From Candidatus Methylomirabilota bacterium (GTDB lineage Bacteria; Methylomirabilota; Methylomirabilia; Methylomirabilales; Methylomirabilaceae): a stretch of DNA of 64,000 nucleotides. The notes below the pieces were generated by a model that saw only the letters and a list, made by a program, of their open reading frames with translations, was not told the origin of the DNA and did no database searches. Position numbers and translations under genes: made by a program. The stretch spans positions 124,001-188,000 of the forward strand of contig PQAM01000018.1 in assembly GCA_003104975.1 (NCBI GenBank), given 5' to 3'. Within the stretch, counting starts at the first letter, position 1; every line of letters begins with the position of its first letter. Positions 53,695 through 62,049 of this stretch are shown here, piece after piece.

Positions 53695-53905
53695 TCGGTT
53701 GACTCGTGTCTGGATATCGGCGGCCACGGTGCCTCCTTTGGGATTACGTCCTCCCTGATGATGGATCTACGTCAGCTACAAACGCATTCTCCTCCCTGTC
53801 CATGAGACAGGTAATCAGGTAATACCCCGAAAGAGGAGGAGGAAATCCCTGAAAAGACACGTCGCGCAATGTCCAAGGCCGCAGAGCTGCCCGGCGGCAG
53901 GCCGG

Positions 53906-55792: not shown

Positions 55793-56095
55793 CTAGCGCC
55801 CTGCCCGGATGAACGCCTCGACGAGCCGACGAAGCGGCCTCGTCTCCGGCGTCTCTTCATCGACGAAGGTTACCGTATGCTGTCGCTCGCCTTCGGTAAT
55901 GGTGATCTCGTATTGGAACAGATCGGCGCCGACAACGCCCCCGGAGACAAAGGCCGGCAGGTCGAAGAAACGAATATTGTTCACTAACTGCTCAACCTGT
56001 TGTGCCACCGCCGCGTCCAGCCGCGTGGTACTGAAGGCGGCAATCTCCTGGCTCAGGCCGGCGTACCCGCCGATGCGCTTCACGACAATCTCCAC
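55793..56095 (-). CDS. Emfourin-like protease inhibitor
   Basis: A 100-residue protein beginning VEIVVKRIGGYAGLSQEIAA with FFDLPAF, ADLFQYEITITEGERQHTVTF and a C-terminal RPLRRLVEAFIRAGR. This is the pattern of emfourins, small proteins that inhibit M4-type metallopeptidases encoded next to them. The gene follows the metallopeptidase with only a hairpin between them. GTG start at 56095 after AAAGGG, parallel to the start of the duplicate at 59825. Confidence 0.82.
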   Translation of the reverse strand: MEIVVKRIGGYAGLSQEIAAFSTTRLDAAVAQQVEQLVNNIRFFDLPAFVSGGVVGADLFQYEITITEGERQHTVTFVDEETPETRPLRRLVEAFIRAGR

Positions 56096-56115
56096 CGCCG
56101 TCCCTTTCAAAGAGG

Positions 56116-56153
56116 GGACGGCCCGGGGGGGAGGAGGTGTCCCCGGGCCGTCC
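56116..56153 (-). terminator. GC-rich hairpin between peptidase and inhibitor genes
   Basis: GGACGGCCCGGGG (56116-56128) pairs perfectly with CCCCGGGCCGTCC (56141-56153). A near copy exists at 59847-59885. No T run; it may tune inhibitor against peptidase expression. Confidence 0.6.
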
Positions 56154-56166
56154 AGCGGGAATCGTA

Positions 56167-57582
56167 TCAGACTTTGGCTGTAGCACGGGCGCGCGCCGGG
56201 CTACCGGCGAGGGCGCGCTTCAGCTCTTCAACCTCCACCTGCAGCGCCTCCTCGCCTCCGCAAAATTCGGCGAGATTCATCGTGCCACAGCAGGTGCTCC
56301 GATTCTGCATCGCGCCCGGCGCATCCTGCATGGCGGGCTCCAACTCGCGCGTCGCGTCGTGGTCCGCCTGTAACGGTGTCGGCGAGACCACCACCTCCCG
56401 AACCGTAAAGCGGTTTCGGATGAAGTTACGATACTGCACCGGCTTGCCGTCTGCCAGGGCGATGCTGAGCATCTGGTTCGCGACATTCGCAAAGGTGGCG
56501 GCGGTGGCGGGCGCCGCAATGAGCGCGCGAAGCACCAGGCTGCAGACGTACTGGCCGACCTCGTACAGGACCGCGGCATCGTCCTTGACCGCGCTCTTTC
56601 GCTCGAAGGCGAAGATGTCGGCGAAAATGTCGTAGATGGCGCCGGTAAAGACCTGCGAGATCGCATGTACCTCGGTCCCCACCTGACTCAGCTTCAGGTC
56701 GTTGTCGGCGTTGCGCAGGCCGTTGGGTCGGCCCAGCGCCAAGCCGAACTGCTCCGCCAGATCGGCCAGGAAGGTCTTATCGTGCAGGTTGGCCTTGGTC
56801 TGGGCGATGATCGCCTCTACCTGATCGATCTGGGAGAGGGCGAGGAAGATAGCGGTCAGATCCCCGAACGACTCATGCAGACCTCCCGTCTGTGGGGGAT
56901 TCCCAATCCCGAGCCACCCGGGCTTGAGTCCATCCAGAATGGCATGGCCGGTTTCGTGGGCCACAATGTCCAGCGAGCGGCAGGTAAAGACCCGTGATGG
57001 CGGAGGAGTACCGTTGGGGATGAAGTCGCCGAACTTGAGCGCCTTCGCATTTCGGCTGTAAAAGGCGTTCATGGTGTCAGGGAGACCATGCGGAAAGACG
57101 TTGAGCGGATCGGTATTGGTAGCGCTATTCCACTGCCACGGCAGTGGGGAAGGCGCCCCGCCGACAGCCCGGCACCGCTGGTACATGGTGAGCGTCTGAC
57201 GGACGACGGCGAAAGTATGGACCGCATCGAAAGCGTCTGTGCCGGGCGTGTGGACGAAGTCCCCGAACGCGTTCGGCGTGACCGACGCAATGCCCGGGGT
57301 CCCATGGCTGATGCGGGCGTCTTTCGGCCCCGTGAGCACCTGCCCGGGGAGATAGGCCCTGCGGATGCCGATTTCGGCAACCGACGGATCCTGCTTCCAC
57401 ATCAGGACCCGCGAACCTATCACCACCGGGATCGGGATCGGGATCGGAGCCGGTTTCACCGGCATGCCGGGCTCCACGGTGACCTTCAGACTCTTCCGGT
57501 GGGTTCGATACTCGATGGTGGGGGTCGGCAGCGTGATGGGTACGGTAGGATATCCGTTTCCGGTCAGCTCTTTCTCCTTCAT
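56167..57582 (-). CDS. HETGH zinc metallopeptidase (M4-like)
   Basis: A 471-residue protein. The zinc motif HETGH is at 209-213 in DIVAHETGHAILDG; the third ligand is probably Glu237 in GGLHESFGDLTAIFLAL, where thermolysin-type enzymes have NExxSD. There is no signal peptide: the N-terminus is a basic and proline-rich stretch (PAPIPIPIPVVIGSR). That suggests cytoplasmic location, as for protealysin-like enzymes, or an unusual export route. A cysteine-bearing C-terminal tail (STCCGTMNLAEFCGGEEAL) is distinctive. The adjacent emfourin-like gene is its likely inhibitor. Start at 57582 after GGGGAG. Confidence 0.8.
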   Translation of the reverse strand: MKEKELTGNGYPTVPITLPTPTIEYRTHRKSLKVTVEPGMPVKPAPIPIPIPVVIGSRVLMWKQDPSVAEIGIRRAYLPGQVLTGPKDARISHGTPGIASVTPNAFGDFVHTPGTDAFDAVHTFAVVRQTLTMYQRCRAVGGAPSPLPWQWNSATNTDPLNVFPHGLPDTMNAFYSRNAKALKFGDFIPNGTPPPSRVFTCRSLDIVAHETGHAILDGLKPGWLGIGNPPQTGGLHESFGDLTAIFLALSQIDQVEAIIAQTKANLHDKTFLADLAEQFGLALGRPNGLRNADNDLKLSQVGTEVHAISQVFTGAIYDIFADIFAFERKSAVKDDAAVLYEVGQYVCSLVLRALIAAPATAATFANVANQMLSIALADGKPVQYRNFIRNRFTVREVVVSPTPLQADHDATRELEPAMQDAPGAMQNRSTCCGTMNLAEFCGGEEALQVEVEELKRALAGSPARARATAKV

Positions 57583-57652
57583 CATCGTCTCCCCTTTCAA
57601 GGCCTTCCGTTCAATTTCGCCGGAAGGCCCGGCTTGTACTTTTCACCGCCCT

Positions 57653-58693
57653 TTACCTTGCTCCAGCATGTGCGATCAACTCATCTTCTTTCTCCTCCTT
57701 CCCATCGGCCAGGCCGCGTGTCGCCTCAGTGTGTGTAACCGATATCTCTTCCGGGGCCAGTTCCCGCTCGGTGAGGCGCCAAGTCCCCCGCCGGGAACCA
57801 AACCGAGCGATGTCCTGCCGGACCTGCTCCGGGTTGCCCCAATCGTTCCAATAGATCCCCTTGACCGGCAAAACGCCAAGGCGCTGCGAGCAACGCGCCA
57901 AGATCGCTTGGGAGAAGTTGACGGAGGGTAGGGTGCTGTAGACCTCCTCCAGGACCTCGGCATGCCGGGATCGATCACAACTGGAACAGAGTCGATACAG
58001 AGCAACAAAGAGCCTGGGCGTTAGCGTGACAAAAAGCGACAGAAGGGCTCCCGCCTGGCCGACAAGGACCATCGTATTCCATAAGCACCCGTTCAGGTAG
58101 AGACTATTAGCCGTCTGGAGGTCCGGCTTCTCCCAGAACCGCTTGACCAGATGCAGTTCCCTTTCCCCGCGTTGCCCAATCACCTCACCGGCCTCGATCC
58201 AACCGTATTGAGTTTCAGACCGATCAGGCTCAACCCCAAGGAGGATGGGGCGGACCGGATATGCAGCCGCGAAGGAGGCGGCGGCCTCGACGGACGCCAT
58301 GAAACGATCTTCCTCGGAGATGAAGTGATCGGAGGGCAAAAGGGCGACCACCGCCTCCGGGTCCCGCTGATAGATGTGGAGAAGCGGCAAAAGGATGCCG
58401 GGGCCGGTATCCCGGTTCATAGGCTGAACGATGACCGTTTCAGGGTGACGATCATGAAGCTCCTGTCGAGCATAGTCGAGGTGGTGGCGGGTGACCACGG
58501 TCAGAAGGCGGTCATGCGGGATGAGCCGTTCCGCTCGGGCGATCGTGTGCCGCAGCATGGAGCGCGTGCCGAGCAACGCACAGTACTGTTTCGGACGCTC
58601 AAGGCCCAGATGCGACCTGATGAACGGTCGAAGTCTTTGCCCGTCACCCCCGGCGAGAATGATGCCCCATAGACGATCTGTCGCTCCAGACAT
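57653..58693 (-). CDS. Mannose-1-phosphate guanylyltransferase-like nucleotidyltransferase, copy 1
   Basis: A 346-residue sugar-nucleotide transferase. WGIILAGGDGQRLRPFI is the nucleotide loop, ERPKQYCALLG the family FRPKQF-type motif, ALLPSDHFI the metal-aspartate motif, and RFWEKPDL and LYLNGCLWNTMVLVG complete the active site. It would make GDP-mannose, though other NDP-hexoses are possible. Roughly the first 190 residues are almost identical to the paralogue at 59986, while the C-terminal third differs strongly. No isomerase domain is attached. It heads the peptidase/inhibitor unit, 71 bases upstream. Confidence 0.88.
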   Translation of the reverse strand: MSGATDRLWGIILAGGDGQRLRPFIRSHLGLERPKQYCALLGTRSMLRHTIARAERLIPHDRLLTVVTRHHLDYARQELHDRHPETVIVQPMNRDTGPGILLPLLHIYQRDPEAVVALLPSDHFISEEDRFMASVEAAASFAAAYPVRPILLGVEPDRSETQYGWIEAGEVIGQRGERELHLVKRFWEKPDLQTANSLYLNGCLWNTMVLVGQAGALLSLFVTLTPRLFVALYRLCSSCDRSRHAEVLEEVYSTLPSVNFSQAILARCSQRLGVLPVKGIYWNDWGNPEQVRQDIARFGSRRGTWRLTERELAPEEISVTHTEATRGLADGKEEKEDELIAHAGAR

Positions 58694-59090
58694 GGCCACT
58701 TCTCCTTTGGTTGGTAGACGCTACATTTTGTTTTAGCACCGAGGGTTGGAGATCGGCATGACCAAAAAAGGTGCTGCGTTTGGGGGTACGACGACATGTG
58801 GGAAGTGGGTCAACTACCCCCAAAGTAATTGCTCTTAATGTAGGCCACCGCGTCTCACGATAGCTATCGGGTAAATCCCTGAATGGCAGGCAGGAAATCC
58901 CTGATCTGTAGGGGCGCGATTCACCGCGCCCTGCTTCACCGCGTCACGTGCATGCGCATGGATGGTCACGATCACCGAATCAGTCAAAGCGAGTGTAGCG
59001 CGGACTGAAGGCTAACGCCTCATCAATCGACCCACGAGGGGTAGAAGGCGTGAAAAGGGGGTTGGCAGACCAGCGGAGCGGGCGATCCGG
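58694..59090. other. Gap between copy-1 nucleotidyltransferase and fused regulator
   Basis: Contains GATAGCTATCGGGTAAATCC and CTGAATGGCAGGCAGGAAAT (58858-58897), similar to 61150-61200 upstream of copy 2, and a REP-like GTAGGGGCGCGATTC element at 58908-58932. No gene seen. Confidence 0.55.
58908..58932. repeat. REP-like palindrome GTAGGGGCGCGATTC/GCGCCC, copy 1
   Basis: GTAGGGGCGCGATTCACCGC followed by GCCCT. GGGCGCG pairs with CGCGCCC. Same family as the five copies around the transposase at 61.3 kb. Confidence 0.8.
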
Positions 59091-59825
59091 CTATTCCACA
59101 ACCCGGTTGAGGACAAGTTGGAGCCGCCGGCTGATCTTCAACTTGTTAAAAATATTGCTCAGATGTGTCTTGACGGTCTTGTCGGCGATCCCAAGCTGAA
59201 CGGCAATCTCTTTGTTCGTCATCCCCTGTAGGACCCACTGAACGACATCCCGCTCACGAGCCGTTAGGCTCTCTTGCGCCTCCTGAAGGGAGGCCCCCAT
59301 CCCGTGCACTTTCAAGCGCAAGCTTTCCAGTACCTGCGTAAGAATTTTGCGCTCTGCCCAGATCTCCCCGTTACTATGGGTAGTCCGGATGGCCCTGACA
59401 AGATCCTGATGGACGAGGGTTTTCGACAAATATCCTTTGGCGCCCAGTTGCAGGGTTTGGATTATGGACTCATCGTCCGGCGAGTCGCAGAGGATCAACA
59501 CGCGTGTCCGAGGAGCTCTCTTACGGATCAGTGAAAGTGCTTCGACGCCGCCAAGTCCCGGCATTCCGATGTCCAGCAACAGGATATTCGGCTGCAGGGT
59601 TTCCGCTATGCTGATGGTCTGGAAACCATCTGCCGCTTCCCCAACCACCTGGACGGCGTCGTCCTGAGCTAAGAGCATCGCAAGGCCTTGTCGAAAGAGC
59701 GCATGATCATCAGCAATCAGTACGGTGATTTGCGGTATCAACCCCGCCTGTCCGGGGCGCTTGAGGGTGGGGATCTGCTGGCTCAGCCCGGCGTACCCGC
59801 CGGTCCGCGTCGCGACAATCTCCAT
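59091..59825 (-). CDS. NarL-type response regulator with an emfourin-derived N-terminus
   Basis: A 244-residue protein. Residues 1-20 (MEIVATRTGGYAGLSQQIPT) match the start of the emfourin-like protein (VEIVVKRIGGYAGLSQEIAA); a short linker leads into a receiver from about residue 33 (ITVLIADDHALFRQGLAMLL, phospho-Asp85 in ILLLDIGMPG) and a LuxR helix-turn-helix (LTARERDVVQWVLQGMTNKE, then LGIADKTVKTHLSN). The ATG at 59825 and its AAAGGA site correspond to those of the emfourin gene, so the duplication appears to have donated the translation start. No histidine kinase is adjacent. Confidence 0.88.
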   Translation of the reverse strand: MEIVATRTGGYAGLSQQIPTLKRPGQAGLIPQITVLIADDHALFRQGLAMLLAQDDAVQVVGEAADGFQTISIAETLQPNILLLDIGMPGLGGVEALSLIRKRAPRTRVLILCDSPDDESIIQTLQLGAKGYLSKTLVHQDLVRAIRTTHSNGEIWAERKILTQVLESLRLKVHGMGASLQEAQESLTARERDVVQWVLQGMTNKEIAVQLGIADKTVKTHLSNIFNKLKISRRLQLVLNRVVE

Positions 59826-59846
59826 CGTCATTCCTTTCGAAGAGGC

Positions 59847-59885
59847 GACGGCCCCGGGGCGAGCGAGGAGGTCCCCCGGGCCGTC
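59847..59885 (-). other. Duplicated GC hairpin upstream of the fused regulator
   Basis: GACGGCCCCGGGG (59847-59859) pairs with CCCCCGGGCCGTC (59873-59885) with one mismatch; counterpart of 56116-56153. Confidence 0.55.
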
Positions 59886-59985
59886 CGTTGGGTCCGTGCA
59901 GCGGACCCGACTTCGACTGTGATATGGATGCCCGTCTCGCCGGCCGGTGCCTGAAAATGCCACGACGGTATCCCCGGATCCTTTG

Positions 59986-60972
59986 CTAACAGGCCTGAGA
60001 GACCACCTGTGCCTGAGTGCCCTGCATGAGAGGCCAGCCGCAAGCCCCGCTGCGTGCAGGTACCATCCCGCTAAGGCGATCCAGGTCGGACTTGACCTGC
60101 CGAGGACTTCCCCAATCGCTCCAATAGATCCCTTTGGCCCGGATGACCCCAAGGCAGGAAGGGCTGCGGGCCAGTATCGTCCGCGAGAAATTCACCGAAG
60201 GGAGACCCGCGTAGAGTGCCTCCACGGCTCTTCCCTCTTGCGCTTGAGAGGATCCCAGCACCGGGCGGAGTCGCTCGAATGGGGTATACAGCTCCGGCGT
60301 GAGTTCCTTGAAAAGCTGCAACAGCATGGACGCCCTTCCCACCAAGACCAGGGTATTCCACAGGCAGCCATTCAGATAAAGGGATTGAGCGGTGGCGAGA
60401 TCGGGCTTCTCCAAAAATCGCTTGACCACATACAGCGCATTCCCCCCGCGCTCCCCGATCACGTCACCGGCCTCGATCCAGCCGTATTGAGTTTCGGGCC
60501 GATCAGGCTCCACCCCAAGGAGGATGGGGCGGATCGGATACGCGGCTGCGAAGGAGGCGGCGGCCTCGACGGACGCCATGAAACGGTCTTCCTCAGAGAT
60601 GAAGTGGTCGGAAGGCAAAAGGGCGACCACCGCCTCCGGGTCCCGCTGATAGACATGAAGAAGCGGAAGCAGGATACCGGGGCCTGTGTCCCGGTTCGAG
60701 GGCTGGACGATGACCGCTTCAGGGTGACGATCATGCAGATCCTCTCGAGCATAGTCGAGGTGGTGGCGCGTCACCACGGTCAGAAGGCGGTGATGGGGGA
60801 TGAGCCGTTCCGCTCGGGCGATCGTGTGTCGCAGCATGGAGCGCGTGCCGAGCAACGCACAGTATTGTTTCGGACGCTCAAGGCCCAGATGCGACCTGAT
60901 GAACGGTCGAAGTCTTTGCCCATCACCTCCGGCAAGGATGATACCCCACAGGCGATCCTTCGCTCCGGCCAT
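59986..60972 (-). CDS. Mannose-1-phosphate guanylyltransferase-like nucleotidyltransferase, copy 2
   Basis: A 328-residue paralogue of the protein at 57653, with the same motifs (WGIILAGGDGQRLRPFI, ALLPSDHFISEEDRF, FLEKPDL). Identity is near complete over roughly the first 190 residues, then falls after LYLNGCLWNT. The C-terminus (WPLMQGTQAQVVSQAC) is shorter and different. Start ATG at 60972 after AGGAGAAGA. The mosaic pattern suggests duplication followed by gene conversion in the 5' half. Confidence 0.88.
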   Translation of the reverse strand: MAGAKDRLWGIILAGGDGQRLRPFIRSHLGLERPKQYCALLGTRSMLRHTIARAERLIPHHRLLTVVTRHHLDYAREDLHDRHPEAVIVQPSNRDTGPGILLPLLHVYQRDPEAVVALLPSDHFISEEDRFMASVEAAASFAAAYPIRPILLGVEPDRPETQYGWIEAGDVIGERGGNALYVVKRFLEKPDLATAQSLYLNGCLWNTLVLVGRASMLLQLFKELTPELYTPFERLRPVLGSSQAQEGRAVEALYAGLPSVNFSRTILARSPSCLGVIRAKGIYWSDWGSPRQVKSDLDRLSGMVPARSGACGWPLMQGTQAQVVSQAC

Positions 60973-61278
60973 AGTCTCTTCTCCTTGTGTTGTAGTGGAC
61001 GCGTTTCTGTGTCGATTGCGCTGTTCTATGGGTTGGTCCCGGAATGGGTCAGGACTGAGAAGGCGTTCACAGTCAAACGACCACCGACCAGCGTCGTGCT
61101 CTGTCGGTCAGCCTCTGCACCGATATTACAGTGCACATTACACGAGAGGGGACGACGACAGCTATCGGGTAAACCCCTGAATAACCGGCAGGAAATTCCT
61201 GATAGGGGCTAAACGGCGAAGCGATGGAGGCGTCGAAGGATCACGGCTGGAACAAGCGAGGAAGAAAATCGCATGAAC
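60973..61278. other. Gap upstream of copy-2 nucleotidyltransferase
   Basis: Shares a CAGCTATCGGGTAAACCCCT and CGGCAGGAAATTCCTG block (61150-61200) with the region near 58860. It should contain the copy-2 promoter. No gene seen. Confidence 0.5.
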
Positions 61279-61305
61279 GTAGGGGACGGGATTTATTGCG
61301 CCCTG
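61279..61305. repeat. REP-like palindrome, copy 2, at the transposase stop
   Basis: GTAGGGGACGGGATTTATTG followed by CGCCCTG. The transposase stop codon (61293-61295) lies within it. Confidence 0.75.
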
Positions 61306-61868
61306 ACAGCATCAGGGTTTTCGGGATCCTCCGCCCAACGCGCCGGGTTATTTTGGATGTATTCCCGGATGCGATTTAACGAAGTCTCGTCGCGGATGAT
61401 GTGTTCATAATAATTACGTTGCCAACCAAACCCCGGATCTACAGCTGCCCGAATGAATCGAGTCGATGTTGCCTTATATGCACGCACAACATGTCCCAAC
61501 GTAGGGGCGCGATTCATCGCGCCCTGATTTATCGCGCTGGCCGCATGCGCATGATCGGGCGTGGGATCAGGCGCAATGCATTGCGAGGGCGCAATAAATT
61601 GCGCCCCTACCACGATGATGATCCCGTGAATATGGTTGGGCATGACGATAAACTCGTCCACACATACGCACGAGAATCGGGTAGGCAATTCATTCCACGC
61701 CGTCCACGCCATCTGGCCGGCACTGTTCAACCGCATTTCTGCATTCGCTATCTCGCCAAACAACGATGCGTGTTCGTGGACACACATCGTGACGAAATAC
61801 GCGCCCGGGGCACTGTAGTCGTAGCCTCTTACGCGGACGGAGCGCCTGGGACGTTGCGGGTATGTCAT
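61293..61868 (-). CDS. REP-associated tyrosine transposase (Y1 HUH family)
   Basis: A 191-residue single-strand transposase. The N-terminus RRSVRVRGYDYSAPGAYFVT is typical, the metal-binding HUH is His79 and His81 in MPNHIHGIIIV, and the catalytic tyrosine is Tyr153 or Tyr154 in WQRNYYEHIIRDE. Residues 87-95 (VGAQFIAPS) and 115-123 (QGAMNRAPT) are encoded by REP-like palindromes, and the stop lies in a third. The ATG at 61868 follows GGGGGC. Enzymes of this type process and mobilise REP elements, and the copies around it are the likely substrates. Confidence 0.9.
   Translation of the reverse strand: MTYPQRPRRSVRVRGYDYSAPGAYFVTMCVHEHASLFGEIANAEMRLNSAGQMAWTAWNELPTRFSCVCVDEFIVMPNHIHGIIIVVGAQFIAPSQCIAPDPTPDHAHAASAINQGAMNRAPTLGHVVRAYKATSTRFIRAAVDPGFGWQRNYYEHIIRDETSLNRIREYIQNNPARWAEDPENPDAVRAQ
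61501..61526. repeat. REP-like palindrome, copy 3, inside the transposase gene
   Basis: GTAGGGGCGCGATTCATCGC followed by GCCCTG; encodes residues 115-123 on the minus strand. Confidence 0.85.
61586..61610. repeat. REP-like palindrome, copy 4, inverted, inside the transposase gene
   Basis: AGGGCGCAATAAATTGCGCC followed by CCTAC; inverted relative to copy 3, so copies 3 and 4 form a pair 59 bases apart. Encodes residues 87-95. Confidence 0.85.
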
Positions 61869-61949
61869 GTTAGCCCCCAACGCAGGGTAAAGAGCGGCTC
61901 TTGTTCCTCACCAATCAGCATGCACAATGGTCATTTGATCCCGTCTGCG

Positions 61950-61974
61950 AGGGCGCAATGAATTGCGCCCCTAC
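61950..61974. repeat. REP-like palindrome, copy 5
   Basis: AGGGCGCAATGAATTGCGCC followed by CCTAC, upstream of the transposase gene, inverted relative to copy 6. Confidence 0.85.
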
Positions 61975-62023
61975 GATAGGGTTTGTGGCGACGAACGGAT
62001 CACCTGTTTAGGCCGTTACCGCC

Positions 62024-62049
62024 GTAGGGGCGCGATTCATCGCGCCCTA
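62024..62049. repeat. REP-like palindrome, copy 6
   Basis: GTAGGGGCGCGATTCATCGC followed by GCCCTA. With copy 5 it forms another head-to-head pair about 50 bases apart. Confidence 0.85.

Follow-up and report, generated by a model that had tools for sequence, protein, structure and literature searches.

A response regulator gene with an emfourin-derived start and a copied leader in a Methylomirabilota genome

How does a response regulator come to begin with the first residues of a peptidase inhibitor? The question is raised by a stretch of 64,000 nucleotides from a Candidatus Methylomirabilota bacterium, a methane oxidiser of the Methylomirabilis group (assembly GCA_003104975.1, contig PQAM01000018.1, positions 124,001 to 188,000), hereafter the window, in which two adjacent gene blocks begin alike and end differently. 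Block 1 comprises a nucleotidyltransferase (NT1), an HETGH metallopeptidase, a GC-rich hairpin and an emfourin gene, and block 2 a second nucleotidyltransferase (NT2), a similar hairpin and the fused regulator gene. All genes discussed here, those of both blocks and of their neighbours, are encoded on the minus strand, and in the direction of the genes the order is COA, a Y1-type transposase-like gene, block 2, block 1, FKBP, a NarL-type regulator, a receiver-only gene and a histidine kinase. The coordinates and gene order of both blocks, collected in Table 1, had been given correctly in an earlier sequence-only reading. That an emfourin-like start is joined in frame to a NarL-type regulator, as this reading also stated, is borne out: the reading frame is open from the emfourin-derived ATG through the receiver, and the regulator domains are complete.

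Table 1. Features of the two blocks and their surroundings (window positions unless a genome and contig are named)
Feature	Coordinates	Strand	Evidence
COA, CoA-transferase-like gene	63264-62074	minus	
Y1-type transposase-like gene, between COA and block 2	61868-61293	minus	
Operator-like element 5′ of NT2	61155..61203	minus	88% to 58857-58905; kept in other species
NT2 (block 2), NTP-transferase, mosaic gene	59986..60972	minus	PF00483; TIGR01479 partial; halves with different trees
GC-rich hairpin 5′ of the fused gene (block 2)	59847..59886	minus	folds; homologous to 56116-56153
Fused gene, emfourin-derived start plus complete NarL-type response regulator, 244 aa	59091..59825	minus	open frame; Pfam domains
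Emfourin-derived first 20-21 codons of the fused gene, MEIVATRTGGYAGLSQQIPT(L)	59763..59825	minus	82% DNA match in the 125-bp unit
Decayed ancestral regulator start, ATA for ATG/GTG, residue 30	59736..59738	minus	13 same-genus homologues
Operator-like element 5′ of NT1	58857..58905	minus	also at NT genes of G010 and G012 and NT remnant of G004
NT1 (block 1), NTP-transferase	57653..58693	minus	PF00483; 84% identical orthologue in G010
HETGH metallopeptidase, thermolysin-like by motif (block 1)	56167..57585	minus	sub-threshold Peptidase_M4; G010 orthologue
GC-rich hairpin between peptidase and emfourin (block 1)	56116..56153	minus	fold z-score -2.7; outer stem in G010
Emfourin gene, GTG start (block 1)	55793..56095	minus	PF20242
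Element copies in other genomes	G010:C94:9073; G012:C156:9951 and 5665; G004:C6:65178; G000:C10:642399		

Direct nucleotide comparison of the two blocks maps three shared tracts. These are a 49-bp element upstream of the transferase genes (88%), a tract with the ribosome site and the 5′ half of these genes (574 of 665 bp identical, 86%) and a 125-bp unit consisting of the hairpin, the ribosome site and the first 20 emfourin codons (103 of 125 identical, 82%, E 6e-29). The earlier claim that the blocks share a transferase, a hairpin and an emfourin-like start holds with one correction, since the match of the transferases is confined to their 5′ halves and the two genes are not full-length duplicates. 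A search of the 3.0-Mb genome gave two copies of the 125-bp unit and no more, the next match having an E value of 0.06, and a DNA search of 34 relatives yielded a single strong match, located at the emfourin start of the same-genus genome G010. Because of these two genome copies and the single strong match in a relative, the similarity reflects neither a dispersed repeat nor chance; a common stand-alone repeat unrelated to emfourin was ruled out by the same copy number. With respect to the copied start, the emfourin gene of block 1 is either its source or its sister copy.

With respect to the regulator itself, the fused protein combines a receiver (Pfam Response_reg, residues 35-147, 87.1 bits) with a LuxR-type DNA-binding domain (GerE, residues 185-238, 78.9 bits), each covered over all or nearly all of its length, which is the architecture of the NarL/FixJ type. 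The acid pair, the Asp (in the motif LLLDIGMP) and the Lys of the receiver are present in the alignment, and the Ser/Thr position is occupied by Cys in both the window gene and its paralogue. The phospho-acceptor Asp, kept in the window gene, is seemingly lost from several genus homologues (alignment rows L049, L051, L052 and L053). The nearest relative of the fused regulator is a paralogue of the same genome on contig 3 (72% identical), to which it is sister in a maximum-likelihood tree (97/95). Downstream of this paralogue lie a receiver-only gene, a chain-length determinant for XrtA polysaccharide (TIGR03007, above cut-off) and an ATPase associated with XrtA/PEP-CTERM (TIGR03015, 295.5 bits, a little below the cut-off of 324.5). 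A receiver-only gene adjoins the regulator in most relatives; the window copy has no such partner. Between the window regulator and the paralogue, a dN/dS of 0.16 indicates past constraint on the regulator, and a dS of about 1.2 an old split. The dN/dS value also speaks against block 2 being a decaying duplicate without function, an idea to which the transferase remnants found as fragments in three relatives (G004, G010 and G013) lend some weight; both frames of block 2 are open, however, and their domains are intact, and decay of this kind appears quite improbable.

The region around the ancestral start codon suggests how the regulator may have come to depend on a foreign one. In the corresponding column of 13 aligned same-genus homologues, the start is ATG in 11 and GTG in two, whereas the window gene has ATA. 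The leader of the paralogue reads GACAGGAGGGGCTG-ATG-CCG and that of the window gene GACAGGCGGGGTTG-ATA-CCG, a likeness equalled in 13 of 500 shuffles and hence modest evidence for a common origin. Pairing with the anti-Shine-Dalgarno (anti-SD) sequence at this site amounts to -10.8 kcal/mol with a spacing of 4 in the paralogue, and to -6.3/-7.2 kcal/mol with a spacing of 1-2 in the window gene; the emfourin-derived ATG at 59825 is preceded by the SD sequence CGAAAGGAA at a spacing of 5. Because the ancestral ATG is now ATA and its ribosome site is weakened, the emfourin-derived start is probably the one in use in the cell, which makes the earlier suggestion of a new start for the regulator a probable one. 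No good later start exists. The candidate that comes closest is a TTG directly 5′ of the lost ATG (59739-59741, residue 29), with a G-rich stretch upstream, which could be a source of weak internal starts. If the regulator were made mainly from this TTG, which lies at the ancestral site, the emfourin-like stretch would be an untranslated or barely used leader; this is unlikely, given that the ancestral start is ATA, that the SD sequence is weaker and badly spaced for the TTG, and that the upstream ATG has a good SD sequence and an open frame. Among the genomes searched, the fusion is present in one only: it was found neither by the DNA search of 34 relatives nor among the 13 aligned homologues from the genus, and a genome-contig scan returned for the most part distant regulators, whose matches begin at about residue 25-35.

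The transferase genes bear on how block 2 was assembled. Over codons 1-175, NT1 and NT2 share 90.5% DNA identity, more than the 86.9% between NT1 and its G010 orthologue, and over the rest they share 59%. In nucleotide trees, the 5′ half of NT2 joins NT1 (support 99) and the 3′ half branches outside the NT1/G010/G012 clade (support 98). Judged by these halves, NT2 is a mosaic gene, with a 5′ half nearly homogenised with NT1 and a 3′ half from outside the clade, which suggests gene conversion or recombination. Both genes match PF00483, and against the two-domain enzyme model TIGR01479 (equivalog cut-off 373 bits) NT1 and NT2 score 126 and 131 bits, with matches that cover the transferase part only; NT2 resembles a mannose-1-phosphate guanylyltransferase.

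Comparison with relatives shows the state without block 2. G010, a sister species, keeps the order COA, NT1, peptidase, emfourin, FKBP, regulator, with block 1 intact; block 2 is missing from the interval of about 300 bp that separates COA from NT1. In G012, COA and NT1 are followed by a different gene and then a kinase, and both peptidase and emfourin are absent, and in G004 only the end of an NT gene remains beside COA. The earlier account of the locus, a segmental duplication followed by deletion of the peptidase, would have the whole block of transferase, peptidase, hairpin and emfourin duplicated once in tandem, after which the peptidase and the greater part of emfourin were lost and the regulator became attached. 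This gives the same fusion as capture of a 5′ region by the regulator; the path alone differs. The adjacent blocks with the same order and strand, the tracts they share (element, NT 5′ half, hairpin and emfourin start) and the single-block state of G010 are all in keeping with it. It nevertheless remains a doubtful route: NT2 is not a uniform copy, its two halves having different affinities, no remnant of the peptidase between NT2 and the hairpin could be found (no match better than shuffles), and a search for an emfourin remainder 3′ of the regulator likewise found none. The lack of such a remainder also led to the rejection of an insertion of the regulator into emfourin.

The timing of the copied start points the same way. 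Its dS is 0.23 to the window emfourin gene and 0.43 to that of G010, over 15 synonymous sites, a hint that the start was copied more recently than the regulator and its paralogue split; three-way counts over 19 start codons (8/8/11) contain too few sites to place the copy relative to the G010 split. Because NT2 is a mosaic, the remnants are absent and the regulator split appears much older than the copying of the start, a simple duplication with deletion is not supported. As far as sequence comparison goes, block 2 is a set of 5′ parts common with block 1 (element, NT 5′ half, hairpin, emfourin start) combined with other 3′ parts. At least as good an explanation as one duplication and deletion is repeated recombination or gene conversion, and any order of events would be a reconstruction.

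Two further observations concern rearrangement in this region and its counterparts. Short palindromes (GTAGGGGCGCGATTCATCGCGCCCT and relatives) at 58907-58932 and 61283-62048 flank the Y1-type transposase-like gene; palindromes and gene resemble REP/RAYT elements and may mark the site of the rearrangement. In G010, a broken transferase gene (G010:C19:8346-9541, L163) lies directly upstream of a receiver-only gene, the one that elsewhere stands 3′ of the polysaccharide regulator; for that regulator itself, no close homologue was found in G010. The linkage of transferase and regulator may have arisen more than once.

Regarding control, the 49-bp element is kept in four species. In G010 and G012 it is found 5′ of the NT gene, and in G004 it stands between COA and what remains of an NT gene; the receiver-only gene is preceded by a variant, located here at about 53814-53852 and present also in G012. 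Within the element, TCAGGGATTTCCT is followed at a distance of about 22 bp by TTCAGGGATTTACCYGAT; both have short inverted arms, which would suit two aligned sites of a dimeric regulator. Because this operator-like element recurs, the fused regulator and the peptidase-inhibitor operon are probably under shared control. In either block the hairpin comes before the ribosome site, and its outer stem is kept in G010. It has no U-run and was absent from a terminator scan, and is for this reason not a simple terminator; among known RNA families it gave only a sub-threshold match to 6C (27 bits against a threshold of 47, E 1.7). One guess is that it acts in translation or message stability.

A separate question is whether the emfourin-derived residues retain a function of their own. 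The emfourin assignment of block 1 is firm (PF20242, 54.6 bits over residues 5-91, curated cut-off 27), and the HETGH peptidase gene lies directly upstream, both here and in G010. The peptidase has an HExxH motif, reaches 13.4 bits against Peptidase_M4 (PF01447; E 0.11, curated cut-off 22.4) and passes no Pfam or NCBIfam cut-off. Its sole close orthologue within the genus is that of G010 (91% identical), with weak homologues in a few other genomes of the class, and it may represent an undescribed thermolysin-like family paired with emfourin. The predicted model of emfourin (pLDDT 90) has strands at residues 2-9 and 14-22 around a GGYAG turn. The 20 residues retained in the fused regulator correspond to strand 1, the turn and most of strand 2, which in this model is almost exactly the first β-hairpin of the fold, and the GG invariant in nine of nine aligned emfourins is kept. 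A sequence search for a solved structure of emfourin found none of relevance; a fold search with the model placed emfourin 6zyg at rank 5, weakly (E 0.045, TM 0.35).

The kept β-hairpin with its GG and the peptidase gene next door are what would favour a tail that still binds and ties the regulator to the peptidase by docking, inhibition or regulated proteolysis, as the sequence-only reading had allowed with a tail that touches the peptidase. However, only 20 of 100 emfourin residues are present, residues 1-32 of the fused regulator give no Pfam match to the emfourin domain even at E 10, and residues 1-28 are modelled with pLDDT below 50 next to a well-modelled receiver, which is weak evidence of disorder because no aligned row covers the tail. 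In Serratia, moreover, it is the intact inhibitor that binds the active-site region of protealysin, in a 1:1 ratio (PMC9505478). Because only the first β-hairpin is kept, binding of the peptidase by the tail is unlikely, and the touching tail is at best a weak idea; a retained binding function is very improbable. Equally remote is a tail serving as docking or cleavage signal for the HETGH peptidase, whereby a proteolytic signal would reach polysaccharide control and free emfourin would act as competitor.

The explanation considered probable is capture of a regulatory 5′ region, by which the leader and operator-like element that serve the peptidase-inhibitor operon came to control a polysaccharide-type regulator. 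Block 2 would be a mosaic paralogous operon of operator-like element, NT2, hairpin leader and fused regulator. The regulator in it would descend from a duplicated gene, that of the NarL-type regulator in the genome's own XrtA/PEP-CTERM polysaccharide locus, which came to lie behind the copied hairpin, ribosome site and emfourin start; with its own ATG lost, it would be read from the emfourin-derived ATG to give a single in-frame protein. What would change is mainly control: production of a polysaccharide-type regulator, with a presumed effect on polysaccharide genes, would be coupled to that of a sugar-nucleotide transferase, and operator type and leader hairpin would be those of the adjoining transferase/peptidase/inhibitor operon. 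The extra 29 residues would most likely be a passive flexible tail. The fusion alone does not demonstrate a new type of protein or system, and looks like a small rewiring of gene control. As the element is common to the transferase/peptidase/inhibitor operon, the new regulator operon and the receiver gene, the regulon is testable.

Among known systems, block 1 is like the protealysin-emfourin (pln-m4in) operon of Serratia proteamaculans (PMC9505478; 6zyg), in which an HExxH peptidase is followed by emfourin in one orientation. It differs in that its peptidase is sub-threshold for Peptidase_M4 and is preceded by a transferase. For the fused regulator of block 2, we know of no counterpart in the pln-m4in operon. 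By its domains and its position in the tree, the fused gene belongs to the NarL/FixJ regulators of the XrtA/PEP-CTERM polysaccharide loci of the genus, but it stands away from the polysaccharide locus, lacks the receiver-only partner that most of its relatives have beside them, and begins with an emfourin-derived N-terminus. In chimeric genes that arise by 5′ duplication, also described as start or leader capture, a copied leader, ribosome site and first codons drive the frame of another gene. The fused regulator follows the same principle of a copied leader, and differs from them in that the start codon of the recipient has visibly decayed, so that the direction of the change is known. It is in this sense a clear, directional example of the rewiring of a bacterial regulator, whose start was most likely borrowed from an unrelated inhibitor gene together with the leader hairpin of that gene and a copied operator-like element.
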